Of a stretch of DNA of 23,392 nucleotides, positions 13,325-19,510 are shown piece by piece (positions within the stretch are counted from its first letter, which is position 1; the number at the start of each line of letters is the position of its first letter). The notes under the pieces are model-generated. The model did no database searches, was not told where the DNA came from, and was given only the letters and a program-made list of their open reading frames with translations. The stretch spans positions 1 to 23,392 of the forward strand of contig RFFU01000085.1 of assembly GCA_003697085.1 (NCBI GenBank), read 5' to 3'. The translations under genes were made by a program, and so were the position numbers. The stretch is from Candidatus Hydrogenedentota bacterium (GTDB lineage: Bacteria > UBA8481 > J006).

Positions 13325-13714
13325 ATGTCACAGGAGGCTTTGGTCCGGTTTTACAAGGCGATGTTTACGGATGACAACATCCGGAAACAGACGCAGGAGG
13401 CGTTGGCGGCGAACGATGGAGAGAAACTCGTCGAGATCGGCAACGCGAACGGCTTTGAGTTCTCTTTGGAAGAACTCAACGCCTTCACGAAGGTTGTCCG
13501 TGCCTGGCGGGATCCCGAGTTTCGAAATTCGTTGTCGGACGAGGAACGGTCCCAGTTGCCGGAGAATCCGCTTGGCGACGAGGAATTGGATGAAGAATTT
13601 CTGAAGCAGGCGGTTGGAGGGAAACCGAAACCCGGGGGCGGGTGGGTATCCACTGTCAGCGGCGACTGCTGCAAAAAGACCGGAACGTATATTCACGACT
13701 GCAATCCGTTCTGA
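13325..13714 (+). CDS. lanA: Class II lanthipeptide precursor, Nif11-type plus mersacidin-type leader
   Basis: A 129-residue precursor peptide. Residues 1-52 look like a Nif11-type leader domain, ending in ANGFEFSLEEL. Residues 57-99 look like a mersacidin/lichenicidin-type leader: VRAWRDPEFRNSLS, then LPENPLG, an acidic stretch and the double-glycine site VGG (G98-G99). The core is about 100-129 and has C115, C116 and C126 with S109, T110, S112, T119 and T121 available for dehydration. Its segment PGGGWVSTVSGDC parallels mersacidin's PGGGGVCTLTSEC. The ATG at 13325 has AGGAGG 8 bases upstream; the frame is open upstream but without a comparable site. lanM lies in the same direction 2.5 kb downstream, and a stable hairpin directly follows this gene. 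Family call is by motif; the ring pattern is inference. Confidence 0.88.
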   Translation: MSQEALVRFYKAMFTDDNIRKQTQEALAANDGEKLVEIGNANGFEFSLEELNAFTKVVRAWRDPEFRNSLSDEERSQLPENPLGDEELDEEFLKQAVGGKPKPGGGWVSTVSGDCCKKTGTYIHDCNPF

Positions 13715-13953: not shown

Positions 13954-15150
13954 ATGATGGGAAGCCTCTGGTTTACCGAAGGCCTCGGTATTTTTCTCTT
14001 TTTCGTATTCGTGGAATTGGTGGTGGAGCGCCTCTGGCCGCAGATCACGTATTCCTATCAGAACGAATTGATCCGGAAAGGCCGATACAACCTCTTTGCT
14101 CCCGACGAGGTTGTAGGATACCGCTTGAAACCGTCGCTGAAGAACCATTCCGTCTATGCCTTCGATCACTGGATGAAACCCGTGCCTTTCCTCGTATCCA
14201 CCGACGAAGACGGATACAGGATCTCCCGTTTGGACGGCCGAGAAGAGCCGGTGTACGCACTGGTCATAGGAGACAGCAAGGTTTTTGGATTCGGCGTCGA
14301 CAACGATCGAACGATCCCGTCCGTCCTTTCCGCGTTGCTGGATAAGAAAGTCAAGAACTGCGGGCTTCCCGGGGCCGGGCTCGGTGAACATTATTTCACT
14401 TTGAAGAGGGCTTTGGAACGCTACCCGGAGGCACGATATGTCGTTCTTTACGTGAACCTCTCGACGGACACCAGTGAAATGGAGGAAGTCGCGTGGGACG
14501 TCGAGAGAGAAGAATTTCCGGCAAGAATCGAACGGGAACATTTCGTGACGGAGGAGGGATTCTTGAAACAGAAGAATCCTCCTTTTGTTTACCGCATTCC
14601 GGTCATCAGGAATTTTCATTCCGCGATTCTCCTTTTTACCTTCTTTCTTACGATCAAGAGCCTCGTAATCAGCGGAGGAGACCGGCTCTTTCGGAAAGGG
14701 CCGACAAGAATCCTCGACGAAAAGCGAACGAAGATCCAGCGGTGCGTGGCAAAGTATGCGGAGGTGTTGCGGGAATGGAGAGGGAAGGCGATTTTCGTCT
14801 GGGGGATGGCTCTGCCGTATTACGATGGTCGAAAATGGTATGACCGGTTCGATGGATGGCGGAAGGAAATGGAGGAGATGATACGCGGAGAGGAGATCGA
14901 CGCGGCTTTCGTGAATCTGTTGCCTTTGATCAGAGAAAAGTCCGCCCGCCGTTCGCTCTATGTCGAGGCCTCACACTACAGCAGCAGGGGATGCGAGTTC
15001 GTCGCGAAGAGGATCTTCGAGGTGATGCGACGGAACGCGGGGGAGAATCTTCGGCAGGGGAGCGGAGTTGAAGAGGGGGAGGAAAGAAGTGGGACGGCCG
15101 GTACCTCGAAAGAAGTTCGACGGTCCCTTGTGGAGCTGCTCCAGGCGTGA
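13954..15150 (+). CDS. Membrane-anchored SGNH/GDSL-hydrolase-like protein in the lanthipeptide operon
   Basis: A 398-residue protein with an N-terminal hydrophobic helix (about 5-25) that would anchor it, and an SGNH-like fold: block I VIGDSKVFGFGV with candidate nucleophile S108, a glycine segment NCGLPGAGLGEHY, N168 in YVNLSTD, and a C-terminal EASHYSSRG giving H341. The acidic residue three before the histidine is E338 where Asp is usual. A second hydrophobic stretch (about 225-240) breaks the domain. Family members hydrolyse or transfer acyl esters on lipids, sugars or peptides; substrate here is unknown. Its stop overlaps the next gene (GTGA), tying it to lanM. The ATG at 13954 has no good ribosome site; a stop at 13900-13902 limits upstream extension. 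Hydrolase fold is fairly sure; activity is not. Confidence 0.75.
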   Translation: MMGSLWFTEGLGIFLFFVFVELVVERLWPQITYSYQNELIRKGRYNLFAPDEVVGYRLKPSLKNHSVYAFDHWMKPVPFLVSTDEDGYRISRLDGREEPVYALVIGDSKVFGFGVDNDRTIPSVLSALLDKKVKNCGLPGAGLGEHYFTLKRALERYPEARYVVLYVNLSTDTSEMEEVAWDVEREEFPARIEREHFVTEEGFLKQKNPPFVYRIPVIRNFHSAILLFTFFLTIKSLVISGGDRLFRKGPTRILDEKRTKIQRCVAKYAEVLREWRGKAIFVWGMALPYYDGRKWYDRFDGWRKEMEEMIRGEEIDAAFVNLLPLIREKSARRSLYVEASHYSSRGCEFVAKRIFEVMRRNAGENLRQGSGVEEGEERSGTAGTSKEVRRSLVELLQA

Positions 15151-16253
15151 CAGAACCCTTTACTGAGACTTGGCGTCATGTCTTGGACAACGTTCTTCCG
15201 TTTCTTCCCGAGGTACTGGCCGACGGTGAAAACCGATACCGGATGTGTTCGGTTGCCGAGACACTTCCCGCTCCGCTCTCCGAACATTTCGCGTTCGAAT
15301 GTCGTTTCGGGGAAAAAGGTTGTTCCGTGGATTTAATTCTCGAATTGAATCCGGAGTATCGTTCGTCTTTTGTCAAAAAACCGCTTGCCGTTCCCTTTCC
15401 GCCGGGGGCAGGCGAAGAATGGGAGATGGCGCGGGATTTGGCTCGTTGCTGGCTCGATTCCTCTTCCTTCGCCTCTCGGCGCGTGGGAACTCTCTTTTTC
15501 GAGTTCGATACCGCCAGGCCGTCGCCAAGGCGCAATCTCTTCGCGCCGGTCCTCTTCATCGGAGCGCCGGACGAGGGACTCGTTCGCGGCGGAAAAACTC
15601 TTCTTTCCGATGATTTTTCGAGTCTGATGGCGATGCTCGAACTTCTGCGAGGAGTCCCGGTGAGTCCGGGTCACCGGAAGAAACTTCGCCTGCTTCTGGA
15701 GATGCTTCCGGACGGACGGAAACTTGTTCAGCTGGGTTCGACACGCGCCCGAGGGAGAGACGTTACGAAACTCCTTTTGGCGATTGCACCGGAGGAAGAT
15801 CCCGTGGGATACGTTGCGAAGGCGGGCTTTCCCCTTGCAGTTCGGGAGTTGAGGAAAACCTACGACGAGTACCAAAAACTCGTCCGCTGGATTTTTGTGA
15901 TGCTCGATATCGATGAATCCGAAGTTACGAAGATCGGGTGGGAATGTTATACGGGTGATAACGAGTGGCATCCGTTCCTGGAATTCCTGCGGGAACGCGG
16001 TCTCGCTCTGGTCGAGAAGACCGAAGCGCTTCTCCAATGGCTGGGGCGCTCGATCGACGGCGAGGACGGCTACGCGGCGCCGGCGGCGTGGAGGAAGACG
16101 GCGGAAGAGATGAGTCGGATCGCGGGTCGCCGAATTGTTCCGGTCCTGGAGCGCCGCCTCCACCACATCAAAATCGTCCACGACGTTTCCGGGGCGGTGA
16201 CGGCGAAAGCCTACCCCACAGCGCGACTGCGATTCTTAGGAGTCCGGAGATGA
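15147..16253 (+). CDS. Uncharacterised protein coupled to lanM
   Basis: A 368-residue, apparently soluble protein with no signal peptide or membrane helix, starting at GTG (GTGA overlap upstream) and ending in a TGA that overlaps the lanM ATG. I cannot assign a named family. Visible blocks are GTLFFEFDTA (about 113-122), a middle region with KLVQLGSTRARGRDVTKLLL, VMLDIDESEVTKIGWECY followed by WHPFLEFLRERGL (about 251-287), and a C-terminal HHIKIVHDVSGAVTAKAY. From memory, uncharacterised proteins with similar ordered blocks occur beside LanM genes in cyanobacteria; I cannot verify this here. Tight coupling suggests a role in precursor handling or modification, such as substrate recruitment, but no catalytic motif is evident. 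Confidence 0.8.
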   Translation: MTEPFTETWRHVLDNVLPFLPEVLADGENRYRMCSVAETLPAPLSEHFAFECRFGEKGCSVDLILELNPEYRSSFVKKPLAVPFPPGAGEEWEMARDLARCWLDSSSFASRRVGTLFFEFDTARPSPRRNLFAPVLFIGAPDEGLVRGGKTLLSDDFSSLMAMLELLRGVPVSPGHRKKLRLLLEMLPDGRKLVQLGSTRARGRDVTKLLLAIAPEEDPVGYVAKAGFPLAVRELRKTYDEYQKLVRWIFVMLDIDESEVTKIGWECYTGDNEWHPFLEFLRERGLALVEKTEALLQWLGRSIDGEDGYAAPAAWRKTAEEMSRIAGRRIVPVLERRLHHIKIVHDVSGAVTAKAYPTARLRFLGVRR

Positions 16254-19200
16254 CGGTGTCTTCCGATTATCCGTCACTCTCCTCCGAAAATGCCCCGTCC
16301 CGCCTTGCCTCGATTTTCGATCGTGACTGCTGGTATGCCGCTTTGACGCTCGAAGAACGCCGCGATATTTATCGCGCTCAAAGAGACGCTGTAACGGAGG
16401 CAGATCTCGATTATGACCGCGGAAGAGGGTTACGCCAACGTCTTGAGTCGCATCCCGCGTTTCGCCAGTCGCCGGGACGCTTGGAGAAACGATTGCGGAT
16501 GGATGGGCTTGCACCGGCCGAGTTCGAAAGGATTGCATCACTGAAGACAACCTGGCTGAAACAGCACATTCAACACCATCCCTCGTGGCTCCTCGTCCTT
16601 CGTGACGCTTTCGTGAGCGAACCCGACTATTCTCTTTCTCTGGAAGGGCGTCCACTGGCCGGATTTCTCTATCTGGCGCTTCCGCTGATTCAGAGGGCGT
16701 ACGGATCTCTCGGGGACGTTTTCGGTGCATCATCGAATGCATCGCCTCTCATCGCCGATGCCGAAGCTCTGGCGCGTTCGGCCGTCGAGCAGTTTCTCCC
16801 GCACCTCTTCGAGATCGTAGCGAAGGCGGCGATTCTCGAGATGAACTTGGCCTCGCGAATGGGAATTCTTTCGGGAAAGACGGAAGAAGAACGATTTTTT
16901 TCTTTCGTCGCAATGTTGAAGGATCGAGAGTTCGCCGCGGGAATGCTCTCACAATACCCCGTTCTCGCGCGAGACGTCGTGACCTCCGTTGAACTCTTCC
17001 TTAACGCGATGACCGAGATGTTTCAGCACCTGAAGGACGATTGGCCGTCCATCGAACGGGAACTCTTCGGTGGAAAGGCGGCCGGAACCGTGGCGGATCT
17101 CCGCATCGGTCAAGGGGATCGCCATTCCGGTGGACACAGCGTAACCATCTTGAAGTTCAAGGACGGCCGGAAACTCGTCTATAAACCCCGCTCATTGCGG
17201 ATGGAGAGCGGCTTGGCGCGGCTTTTCGAGCGAATCAATAGGGAACTGCCGGAGTTGGATCTGCGGGCATTGAAAGTGCTCGATCGTGGAGATCACGGGT
17301 GGCTCGAATTTGTGGAGGGGCGGTCGGCCGACGAGCGAAACGAGATCTCGCTCTTCTACCGGCGACTCGGCGCGGAGTTGGCTGTCTTGTACGCCTTCCA
17401 AGCCATCGATTATCACTTTGAAAATATTCTCGCTGATGCGGATCATCCGATCTTGATCGATTGCGAGACTCTGATGTCGTCGAACCTCTTTCCGACGGAC
17501 GATTCGATCTCAATCTGGAACAGTATGCAACAGAGCGTTCTGAGTACGGGGCTTCTGCCACACAGGATTTTGCTTCCCAAGTCTCCCGAGGGATTTGATA
17601 TCGGAGGAATGGCTGATGTCGCGGGAGAACGTCTGCCGGACGAAACACCGGACTGGGATGTCCCACCTTCCGATCGCATGCGATTGACCTATTCCGCGAA
17701 GCCGCTCGAAAAGGGTCGGAACCGTCCCCGCTTGAAAGGCCGGGAAGTGAATATGCTCGAGTTTCTCGAGGAATTCGTGGAAGGGTTCTCCGCGGTGTAC
17801 GATCTTTTCCTCGAAAAGCGCAAGGAATGGTTCGACGAGGACGGCGGGGTTTTCGAGGATTTTGCCGGAGCGAAAAGCCGGGTCTTGGTTCGGGTGACGA
17901 TGGGATACGGTTATCTGCTTCGGCGAGTGAGTCATCCGGATTACGGTCGTGATGCTTTGGATCGAGAATGGCTGCTCGACCATCTCTGGATCGGCGCCGA
18001 CGAACAACCGCTTCTGGAGAAGACGATTTCGAGCGAAAGGGCGGCGTTGCGACGGTATGATTATCCCATCTTCTTCGCTTCGATCGGGAGCCGTGATCTC
18101 GAGGACGGTGACGGGGGGCGAATTCCACGGGCTCTTCCTTCCTCGCCGATCGAGGCGGTCCGAGCGCGTCTCGGCCGGTTTTCAGAGGACGACAAGCGGA
18201 AGCAGATCGGTATTATTCGCTCGACCCTGGCAGCCAATCGAAAGGATCGCGTCGCGTTGCGACGCCATACCGTCTTGCCCGCCGCAGGTTCGTTCCCGGC
18301 GAAACGGCTTTTGAAGATCGCGGAACGGGCGAAGGAGTATCTGGAACGCACGGCGATCGAGGGAGAAGACGGAGTGGGATGGTTGGGGCTGCGAATCGGA
18401 ACGGTGATCTTTTCGGAGGCGGAATACGATTTTCAGCCGCTCTGGATCGATCTTTACAGCGGCGTGACCGGCGTGGCGCTTTTCCTTGCTGCGTGGAGCA
18501 AGACGTCCGGTGACGCTCGATCAGAGGAACTGGCACGGAAGGCGTTGCGTTCCCTTGAAAGTCTTGTCGAGGAGAAACTCGAGGGTGTCGAGGAGCGGCT
18601 TGGCGGGTTTGACGGTTGGGGAGGGGTTCTGTACGGACTGACGGCGGTGGGCCGCTTGTTGACGGATGATTCGTTGTTCGCCCTCGCCGCGCGGACCTTG
18701 GCGCGTATCGAAAGAATCATTCCGGAGGTGAAGACGGCGGACATTATTACCGGTGCCGCCGGCGCGATACTTGCTCTTTTGGCTTACGATGCGGTCACCG
18801 GCGAAGCCCGCGGGCACGCGGCGGCTGTTCGGCTCGGAGAGTATCTTGTTCGAACCGCGTTACCGCAAAAACGAGGTCTGGCTTGGAAGGGGCATTCTAC
18901 GGAACCGATTTGCGGTTTCGCTCACGGTGCGGCCGGTATCGGCTATGCATTGCTTCGGCTTGGCGCCGTTACGGGCGAAGAACGGTTTCGGGAAACAGGA
19001 ATCGCGGCGTACGAATATGAGCGGTTTCGATTCCGCTCCGAGATTCGTGATTGGCCGGATATGCGGGATGCCATGAAGGAAATGACGCGAGCCGAGGATG
19101 TCCCACGCAGCTGCACGTGGTGCAACGGGGCTCCGGGAATCGGCTTGAGCAGGCTGGATTCGTTGAGACTGGTGGAGGATTCGCAACTTTCGACGGAAAT

Positions 19201-19510
19201 CCGAGACGCGTTTGATCGCACGATCGAGCGAGGATTCGGCATCTCCCACAGCCTCTGTCATGGAGACTTCGGAAATCTGGTCTTCCTCGACCGCGCCTCA
19301 CGCCATCCGTATTGCGCCGCGGAGCGCGAGCGGGTATGCGCCCTCGCCAACGGTGTGGTGGAGAGCGTCGAAAAAGAAGGGTTTATCTGTGGCGTTCAGA
19401 CGGGGATCGAGACGCCCGGCCTGATGACCGGAGTCGCCGGCATCGGTCTCGGTGCGCTTCTCTTGGCTGAACCGGAATTGTCCGTGAATCCGTTGTTATT
19501 GAAATGTTAG
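16250..19510 (+). CDS. lanM: Class II lanthipeptide synthetase LanM
   Basis: Bifunctional enzyme that phosphorylates and eliminates Ser/Thr, then adds Cys thiols to form thioether rings. The 1086-residue product has an N-terminal dehydratase (DUF4135-like, about 150-680): D290 and H292 in GDRHSGGHSV, K312 in VYKPRS, D387/H389/N392 in DYHFEN, and D404/E406 in LIDCETL, so the kinase-like set is complete. The C-terminal LanC-like cyclase (about 740-1080) has GFDGWGG, H892 in CGFAHGAAGIG, and zinc ligands C958 (WCNGAPG) with C1003-H1004 (CHG), the standard Cys-Cys-His type. The frame is open 95 codons further upstream, but ATG 16250 overlaps the preceding stop (ATGA) and has AGGAG 7 bases before it. 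Its 3' end overlaps the convergent malic enzyme gene by 15 bases. Confidence 0.96.
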   Translation: MTVSSDYPSLSSENAPSRLASIFDRDCWYAALTLEERRDIYRAQRDAVTEADLDYDRGRGLRQRLESHPAFRQSPGRLEKRLRMDGLAPAEFERIASLKTTWLKQHIQHHPSWLLVLRDAFVSEPDYSLSLEGRPLAGFLYLALPLIQRAYGSLGDVFGASSNASPLIADAEALARSAVEQFLPHLFEIVAKAAILEMNLASRMGILSGKTEEERFFSFVAMLKDREFAAGMLSQYPVLARDVVTSVELFLNAMTEMFQHLKDDWPSIERELFGGKAAGTVADLRIGQGDRHSGGHSVTILKFKDGRKLVYKPRSLRMESGLARLFERINRELPELDLRALKVLDRGDHGWLEFVEGRSADERNEISLFYRRLGAELAVLYAFQAIDYHFENILADADHPILIDCETLMSSNLFPTDDSISIWNSMQQSVLSTGLLPHRILLPKSPEGFDIGGMADVAGERLPDETPDWDVPPSDRMRLTYSAKPLEKGRNRPRLKGREVNMLEFLEEFVEGFSAVYDLFLEKRKEWFDEDGGVFEDFAGAKSRVLVRVTMGYGYLLRRVSHPDYGRDALDREWLLDHLWIGADEQPLLEKTISSERAALRRYDYPIFFASIGSRDLEDGDGGRIPRALPSSPIEAVRARLGRFSEDDKRKQIGIIRSTLAANRKDRVALRRHTVLPAAGSFPAKRLLKIAERAKEYLERTAIEGEDGVGWLGLRIGTVIFSEAEYDFQPLWIDLYSGVTGVALFLAAWSKTSGDARSEELARKALRSLESLVEEKLEGVEERLGGFDGWGGVLYGLTAVGRLLTDDSLFALAARTLARIERIIPEVKTADIITGAAGAILALLAYDAVTGEARGHAAAVRLGEYLVRTALPQKRGLAWKGHSTEPICGFAHGAAGIGYALLRLGAVTGEERFRETGIAAYEYERFRFRSEIRDWPDMRDAMKEMTRAEDVPRSCTWCNGAPGIGLSRLDSLRLVEDSQLSTEIRDAFDRTIERGFGISHSLCHGDFGNLVFLDRASRHPYCAAERERVCALANGVVESVEKEGFICGVQTGIETPGLMTGVAGIGLGALLLAEPELSVNPLLLKC

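Follow-up and report, generated by a model that had tools for sequence, protein, structure and literature searches.

The window analysed, 23,392 bases, is an entire contig. On it four genes follow each other in an operon with the order Nif11-type precursor, SGNH-like membrane protein, 368-aa protein and LanM:

13325..13714, + strand, lanthipeptide precursor, 129 aa (PF07862 and TIGR03798 above cut-off, TIGR03898 61 bits, motif scan)
13954..15150, + strand, membrane-anchored SGNH/GDSL-hydrolase-like protein, 398 aa (weak NF047474 match, E 0.0044; lysophospholipase L1-like esterase, E 0.059)
15147..16253, + strand, predicted ABBA-fold peptide prenyltransferase, 368 aa (AlphaFold2, PDB fold matches, MppC homology, invariant residues kept)
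16250..19510, + strand, class II lanthipeptide synthetase LanM, 1086 aa (TIGR03897, E 1.2e-243, 811 bits)

The reading frame at 15147-16253 is real, with a GTG start and 368 codons, and it overlaps both neighbours by four bases, as the initial annotation had pointed out. The TGA stop of the upstream gene lies within GTGA (15147-15150), and the ATG of LanM at 16250 lies within ATGA over the stop of the 368-aa gene; AGGAG is found shortly before this ATG. Scans for promoters and terminators gave results at chance level.

The precursor consists of a 99-aa Nif11-type leader, ending in VGG, and a 30-aa core, KPKPGGGWVSTVSGDCCKKTGTYIHDCNPF. The model it matches with 61 bits, TIGR03898, is that of mersacidin/lichenicidin. 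An L(X)4L motif was located by motif scan in an acidic stretch of the leader, LGDEEL at residue 83. The core has a single Trp (in GGGW), one Tyr, also His, and three Cys, and it does not have the C-terminal Trp that many linked precursors have. LanM is a complete synthetase of class II, in which zinc-type motifs (CxWCNG and CHG) are present. The SGNH/GDSL-like protein has a GDS block and a C-terminal H, and its gene is apparently co-transcribed with that of the 368-aa protein. Since it has no relative in the other loci of the family or in plasmids it was left out of the mechanism discussed below; the protein might have the finished peptide as its target or take part in self-protection.

Neither Pfam nor NCBIfam contains a model that the 368-aa protein matches (for NCBIfam none at E<=1), PDB sequences gave no credible match, and sequence searches alone could not place the protein in a family. 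A single-sequence search of 97 relative genomes gave one worthless match, and a phage collection contained no relatives. A translated plasmid search found full-length relatives with 25-30% identity in Azospirillum B510, Nostoc UHCC 0926 and Pseudanabaena galeata, all of them adjoining LanM and Nif11 or NHLP precursors. A genome scan using the alignment of these plasmid relatives added Brasilonema, Halomicronema, Oscillatoria, Nodularia, Calothrix, Prochloron and one acidobacterium. In evenly drawn genome samples relatives occur in 14 of 292 cyanobacteria and 7 of 247 members of the acidobacterial phylum; the source phylum has two genomes in the collection searched, and of these two only the source genome itself has the family. 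The 34 loci recovered belong to Cyanobacteriota, Acidobacteriota, Azospirillum and the source's own rare phylum. In Prochloron didemni P4 (L012:9465-10609) the homologue is broken into two overlapping frames, which may be a pseudogene or a sequencing error.

Five beta-hairpins separated by helices could be read from the alignment, and the hypothesis of an ABBA fold was written down before any folding. Prediction of the structure of the protein alone, as proposed in the initial annotation, gave a confident ABBA prenyltransferase fold: the AlphaFold2 model (eight sequences, pLDDT 88.4, pTM 0.88) has strand-strand-helix-helix (bb-aa) repeats with five hairpins, and thus the ten-stranded antiparallel barrel made from five bb-aa repeats that defines the ABBA (PT-barrel) fold. 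When the model was compared to the PDB with Foldseek all 20 matches at E<=1e-3 were ABBA-barrel aromatic prenyltransferases, with KgpF, PatF and PagF, enzymes that act on cyanobactin peptides, just below (E 0.005 to 0.03). As remote kinship would lead one to expect, the TM-scores are moderate (0.36-0.54); the global rmsd is large. VIA-align gave Z 17.8 for MpnD (rmsd 3.9 over 295 residues), 17.0 for PriB and 16.9 for CymD. MpnD, PriB, CymD, EpzP, NphB and DMATS share the fold with the 368-aa protein over the whole chain (Z 15-18), but are only about 10% identical to it and have small-molecule or dipeptide acceptors. PatF, PagF and KgpF use the same barrel on ribosomal peptides; in contrast to the 368-aa protein they are about 300 aa long, leader-independent and found in another gene setting, and searches of NCBIfam and PDB sequences gave no sequence similarity between the PatF/LynF-type family and our protein.

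All 34 sequences, the 368-aa protein included, share six residues without exception: E51, E119, G264, K342, K354 and Y356. R202, G197, H340 and D62 are kept in 33 of the 34 and are all present in our protein, while position 208 is always Arg or Lys. The blocks IGWECY and HHIKIV...AKAY, which had looked conserved on first inspection, indeed are: G264 is found in 34/34 and E266 in 32/34 sequences, H340 in 33/34, and K342, K354 and Y356 in 34/34. The statement that the protein has no known catalytic motif holds at the level of sequence, but not at the level of the fold, where these blocks are strands of the prenyltransferase barrel. In ABBA enzymes the diphosphate is held by basic residues of the barrel strands and the indole is oriented by an acidic residue near the first strand. 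The roles proposed here for residues of the 368-aa protein are drawn by analogy with these enzymes and not from superposed coordinates.

By profile search, 28 of the 34 loci have a Nif11/NHLP precursor within 12 kb (the matches are weak, E 1e-6 to 3e-4, at L051, L053, L065 and L070) and 14 of 34 have LanM near, where for mpp it was counted from the adjoining locus L072. A precursor and/or LanM is near in 30/34 loci, compared to 1/20 regions drawn at random from these genomes (a weak match), so the homologues are found mostly inside RiPP loci and not outside. Recurrence with LanM in distant phyla, on which the initial annotation had made its proposal depend, was thus observed, and recurrence with Nif11/NHLP precursors as well, as for a tailoring component of class II lanthipeptide loci. 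Several homologues adjoin precursors without LanM, and what the family is linked to is the Nif11/NHLP peptides as a group, whether LanM is nearby or not.

A C-terminal Trp is commoner in linked than in unlinked precursors (27/48 versus 5/24, p 0.006, the cores not being independent). Trp anywhere in the core shows no significant enrichment (37/48 linked versus 15/24 unlinked, p 0.26), and for this reason the Trp content of cores has not been used as strong evidence for the acceptor. On pAB510a of Azospirillum B510 (L003:1990-7958) eight NHLP precursors, seven of them with a terminal Trp, lie by LanM and the prenyltransferase; they are unannotated in the collection's copy.

A CHARACTERISED relative of the 368-aa protein is, as judged from homology, MppC, a lanthipeptide Trp geranyltransferase. 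MppC of Moorena producens, published in 2025 by Wakeel, McShan and Agarwal, is an ABBA enzyme that geranylates the indole C5 of Trp82 in the LanM-cyclised Nif11-type peptide MppE; it needs the MppE leader, prefers the cyclised peptide and does not accept L-Trp (PMC12715784). The core of MppE is ACWRWSG (PMC11791876). A pattern search for this core in 388 cyanobacterial genomes gave one site, where the precursor has 84 residues with a 77-residue leader, and Leu66, Leu71, Trp80 and Trp82 are exactly as published for MppE. LanM lies at most 3.9 kb upstream of it, and 395 bases downstream a member of the family of the 368-aa protein is found (family HMM E 4.7e-107). This MppC is 25% identical to the 368-aa protein over 363 aligned columns (E 7e-28). 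Its residue 340 is Phe as published, but at residue 336 it has Leu instead of the published Trp, which makes it perhaps the ortholog of MppC from another strain. In the tree the 368-aa protein, on a long branch (2.56), belongs to a supported set of 15 rows (96/89) together with MppC, Azospirillum and a Pseudanabaena-Oscillatoria group.

MppC and the 368-aa protein are alike in full-length homology, kind of fold, invariant residues and subtree, and they have similar settings, with LanM and a Nif11-type precursor carrying L(X)4L (LSDSEL at 66 in MppE, LGDEEL at 83 here). They differ in that the mpp cluster contains further genes, for a halogenase, for arginases and for a terpene synthase-like protein, and in that the MppE core has 7 residues with Trp82 as acceptor, whereas KPKPGGGWVSTVSGDCCKKTGTYIHDCNPF has 30 residues and three Cys. 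Phe340 of MppC, which contacts the leader by inserting into its structured nucleus, aligns with Ile325 of the 368-aa protein, also hydrophobic, in a helix that is variable and gapped. The initial annotation's idea of an undescribed accessory factor can therefore not be kept: the protein has an ABBA prenyltransferase fold, and through MppC (PMC12715784) it matches a family of lanthipeptide prenyltransferases that is already characterised, an outcome which the initial annotation had itself named as a refutation.

A second known enzyme is NctPC, a fusion described as geranylgeranylating Trp of ribosomal peptides and cyclising the chain (Hubrich et al., 2024, via PMC13290415). According to that description it has the ABBA fold, has low similarity to the cyanobactin enzymes and acts on Trp (PMC13290415). 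The kind of fusion described for NctPC is shared by two acidobacterial homologues (L065:7994-10279 and L067:8093-10435), which have C-terminal squalene-hopene-cyclase-like domains. The 368-aa protein differs from NctPC as described in being a single domain with no cyclase domain, and no cyclase gene is found on its contig: no terpene cyclase is present among the contig proteins scanned with Pfam and NCBIfam, nor is there a match to TC600, a conserved protein of about 600 aa. An mppD-like neighbour also carries a squalene-hopene-cyclase-like domain; the two fusions and this domain are compatible with isoprenoid chemistry.

Other arrangements were seen in the family. At L068:12357-13664 a squalene-hopene-cyclase-like protein has an NHLP leader-like N-terminus, as if the enzyme had taken over a precursor leader. 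The gene at L069:7865-9823, which overlaps a LanM gene, joins the prenyltransferase domain to one of the radical SAM/SPASM type. A fusion to a 2OG-Fe(II) oxygenase domain is found at L005:9992-11785, L044:8358-10067 and L045:8912-10681 (by Pfam match for L005 and L045, by equal length for L044), and the genes beside these fusions encode another 2OG oxygenase, a small one, and a metallo-beta-lactamase-like protein. TC600 adjoins the prenyltransferase at L003, L005, L007, L008, L010, L044-L046 and L048, and the precursors at these loci, where seen, nearly all have a C-terminal Trp. We asked by structure prediction if TC600 could be a terpene cyclase. As the model is poor (pLDDT 42), such an identification rests on a weak HMM link to the cyclase-bearing mppD-like protein (E 1.4e-6) and on true squalene-hopene-cyclase domains elsewhere.

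The modelled fold and its structural comparison, the homology to MppC, the conservation of barrel residues and the linkage to Nif11/NHLP precursors and LanM together make it very probable that the 368-aa protein is a peptide prenyltransferase with an ABBA barrel (PT-barrel) and serves specifically the Nif11-type lanthipeptide precursor that its own operon encodes. Points that speak against this are the low identity to MppC (25%), the long branch in the tree, Ile325 at the place of the leader-contacting Phe340, the core's missing C-terminal Trp together with the non-significant enrichment of Trp anywhere in linked cores, and the moderate TM-scores with their large global rmsd. We infer the reaction, the acceptor residue, the prenyl donor and the order of steps as follows. 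The precursor is likely the substrate of both LanM and the prenyltransferase. Its leader would dock on the prenyltransferase through its helical part and the L(X)4L motif, probably as in MppC, and the LanM-cyclised core would be delivered into the barrel, prenylation taking place after or together with the LanM reaction. An allylic diphosphate (GPP, FPP or similar) would be bound in the barrel, with R202, K208, K262, K342 and K354 as candidates for holding the diphosphate. It would ionise, pyrophosphate would leave, and an electron-rich aromatic side chain of the cyclised core would attack the allylic cation. The acceptor is most likely the single Trp in GGGW, with Tyr as second choice, and Glu51 or Glu119 may orient the indole. 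The source genome has two polyprenyl diphosphate synthases, which would supply donors, and translational coupling would keep LanM and the prenyltransferase in step. Because the contig has no terpene cyclase the product would keep a linear prenyl chain.

One quite possible variant, to which we give a substantial though smaller share of belief and which overlaps with the reading just given, keeps the ABBA-fold prenyltransferase but gives it an acceptor other than Trp, such as Tyr or His (O- or N-prenylation), or lets it act on the peptide before LanM. The core has both Tyr and His, and one clade of homologues (L004, L006, L047) lies by cores with Tyr and without Trp. However, Trp is the residue modified by MppC and NctPC, the relatives or analogues that have been characterised, in the latter case according to its published description; MppC prefers the cyclised peptide; and the 368-aa protein groups with MppC and its core has one Trp.

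The protein could also be a non-catalytic scaffold of ABBA fold which presents the leader to LanM, the version that comes closest to the accessory factor first proposed. The translational coupling to LanM would suit such a role, as would the lack of a named motif in databases and of any terpene cyclase or other isoprenoid gene nearby. We consider it improbable, as the protein keeps all residues invariant across 34 relatives, these relatives include an active enzyme and cyclase fusions, and many of them have no LanM close by. Least probable of all is prenylation of a small molecule such as an indole or phenol, as suggested by the best fold matches EpzP, MpnD and AmbP3, which are small-molecule enzymes, since 28/34 loci are linked to RiPP precursors, MppC refuses L-Trp (PMC12715784) and the contig has no small-molecule pathway genes.

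Leader-dependent ABBA lanthipeptide prenyltransferases are thus already known, with MppC published in 2025 and the related fusion NctPC in 2024. As its distant relative MppC was characterised so recently, the 368-aa prenyltransferase is a new and very divergent member of a newly discovered enzyme family. What is new here is this divergent member, from a rarely sampled phylum, with a much longer core and no cyclase on the contig. As far as we have searched the literature, no lantibiotic whose core is long and multi-ring has been described as prenylated. We tentatively put forward, as a possibility we would not bet on, that a stand-alone prenyltransferase acts here at an internal aromatic residue of a large multi-ring mersacidin/lichenicidin-like lanthipeptide, that it recognises the leader in another way than MppC does (Ile325 in place of Phe340), and that translational coupling makes it a close partner of LanM. 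Should this be true, a divergent leader-dependent enzyme working on a long multi-ring lantibiotic would be useful as a tool and would allow one to test how the recognition of leaders evolved. The assignment gives a function to a widespread protein family to which our searches found no corresponding Pfam or NCBIfam model. It also shows that predicted loci for prenylated (lipidated) lanthipeptides extend well past the cyanobacteria, to Acidobacteriota, Azospirillum and a rarely sampled phylum, and lipidation can alter the activity and the membrane behaviour of antimicrobial peptides.
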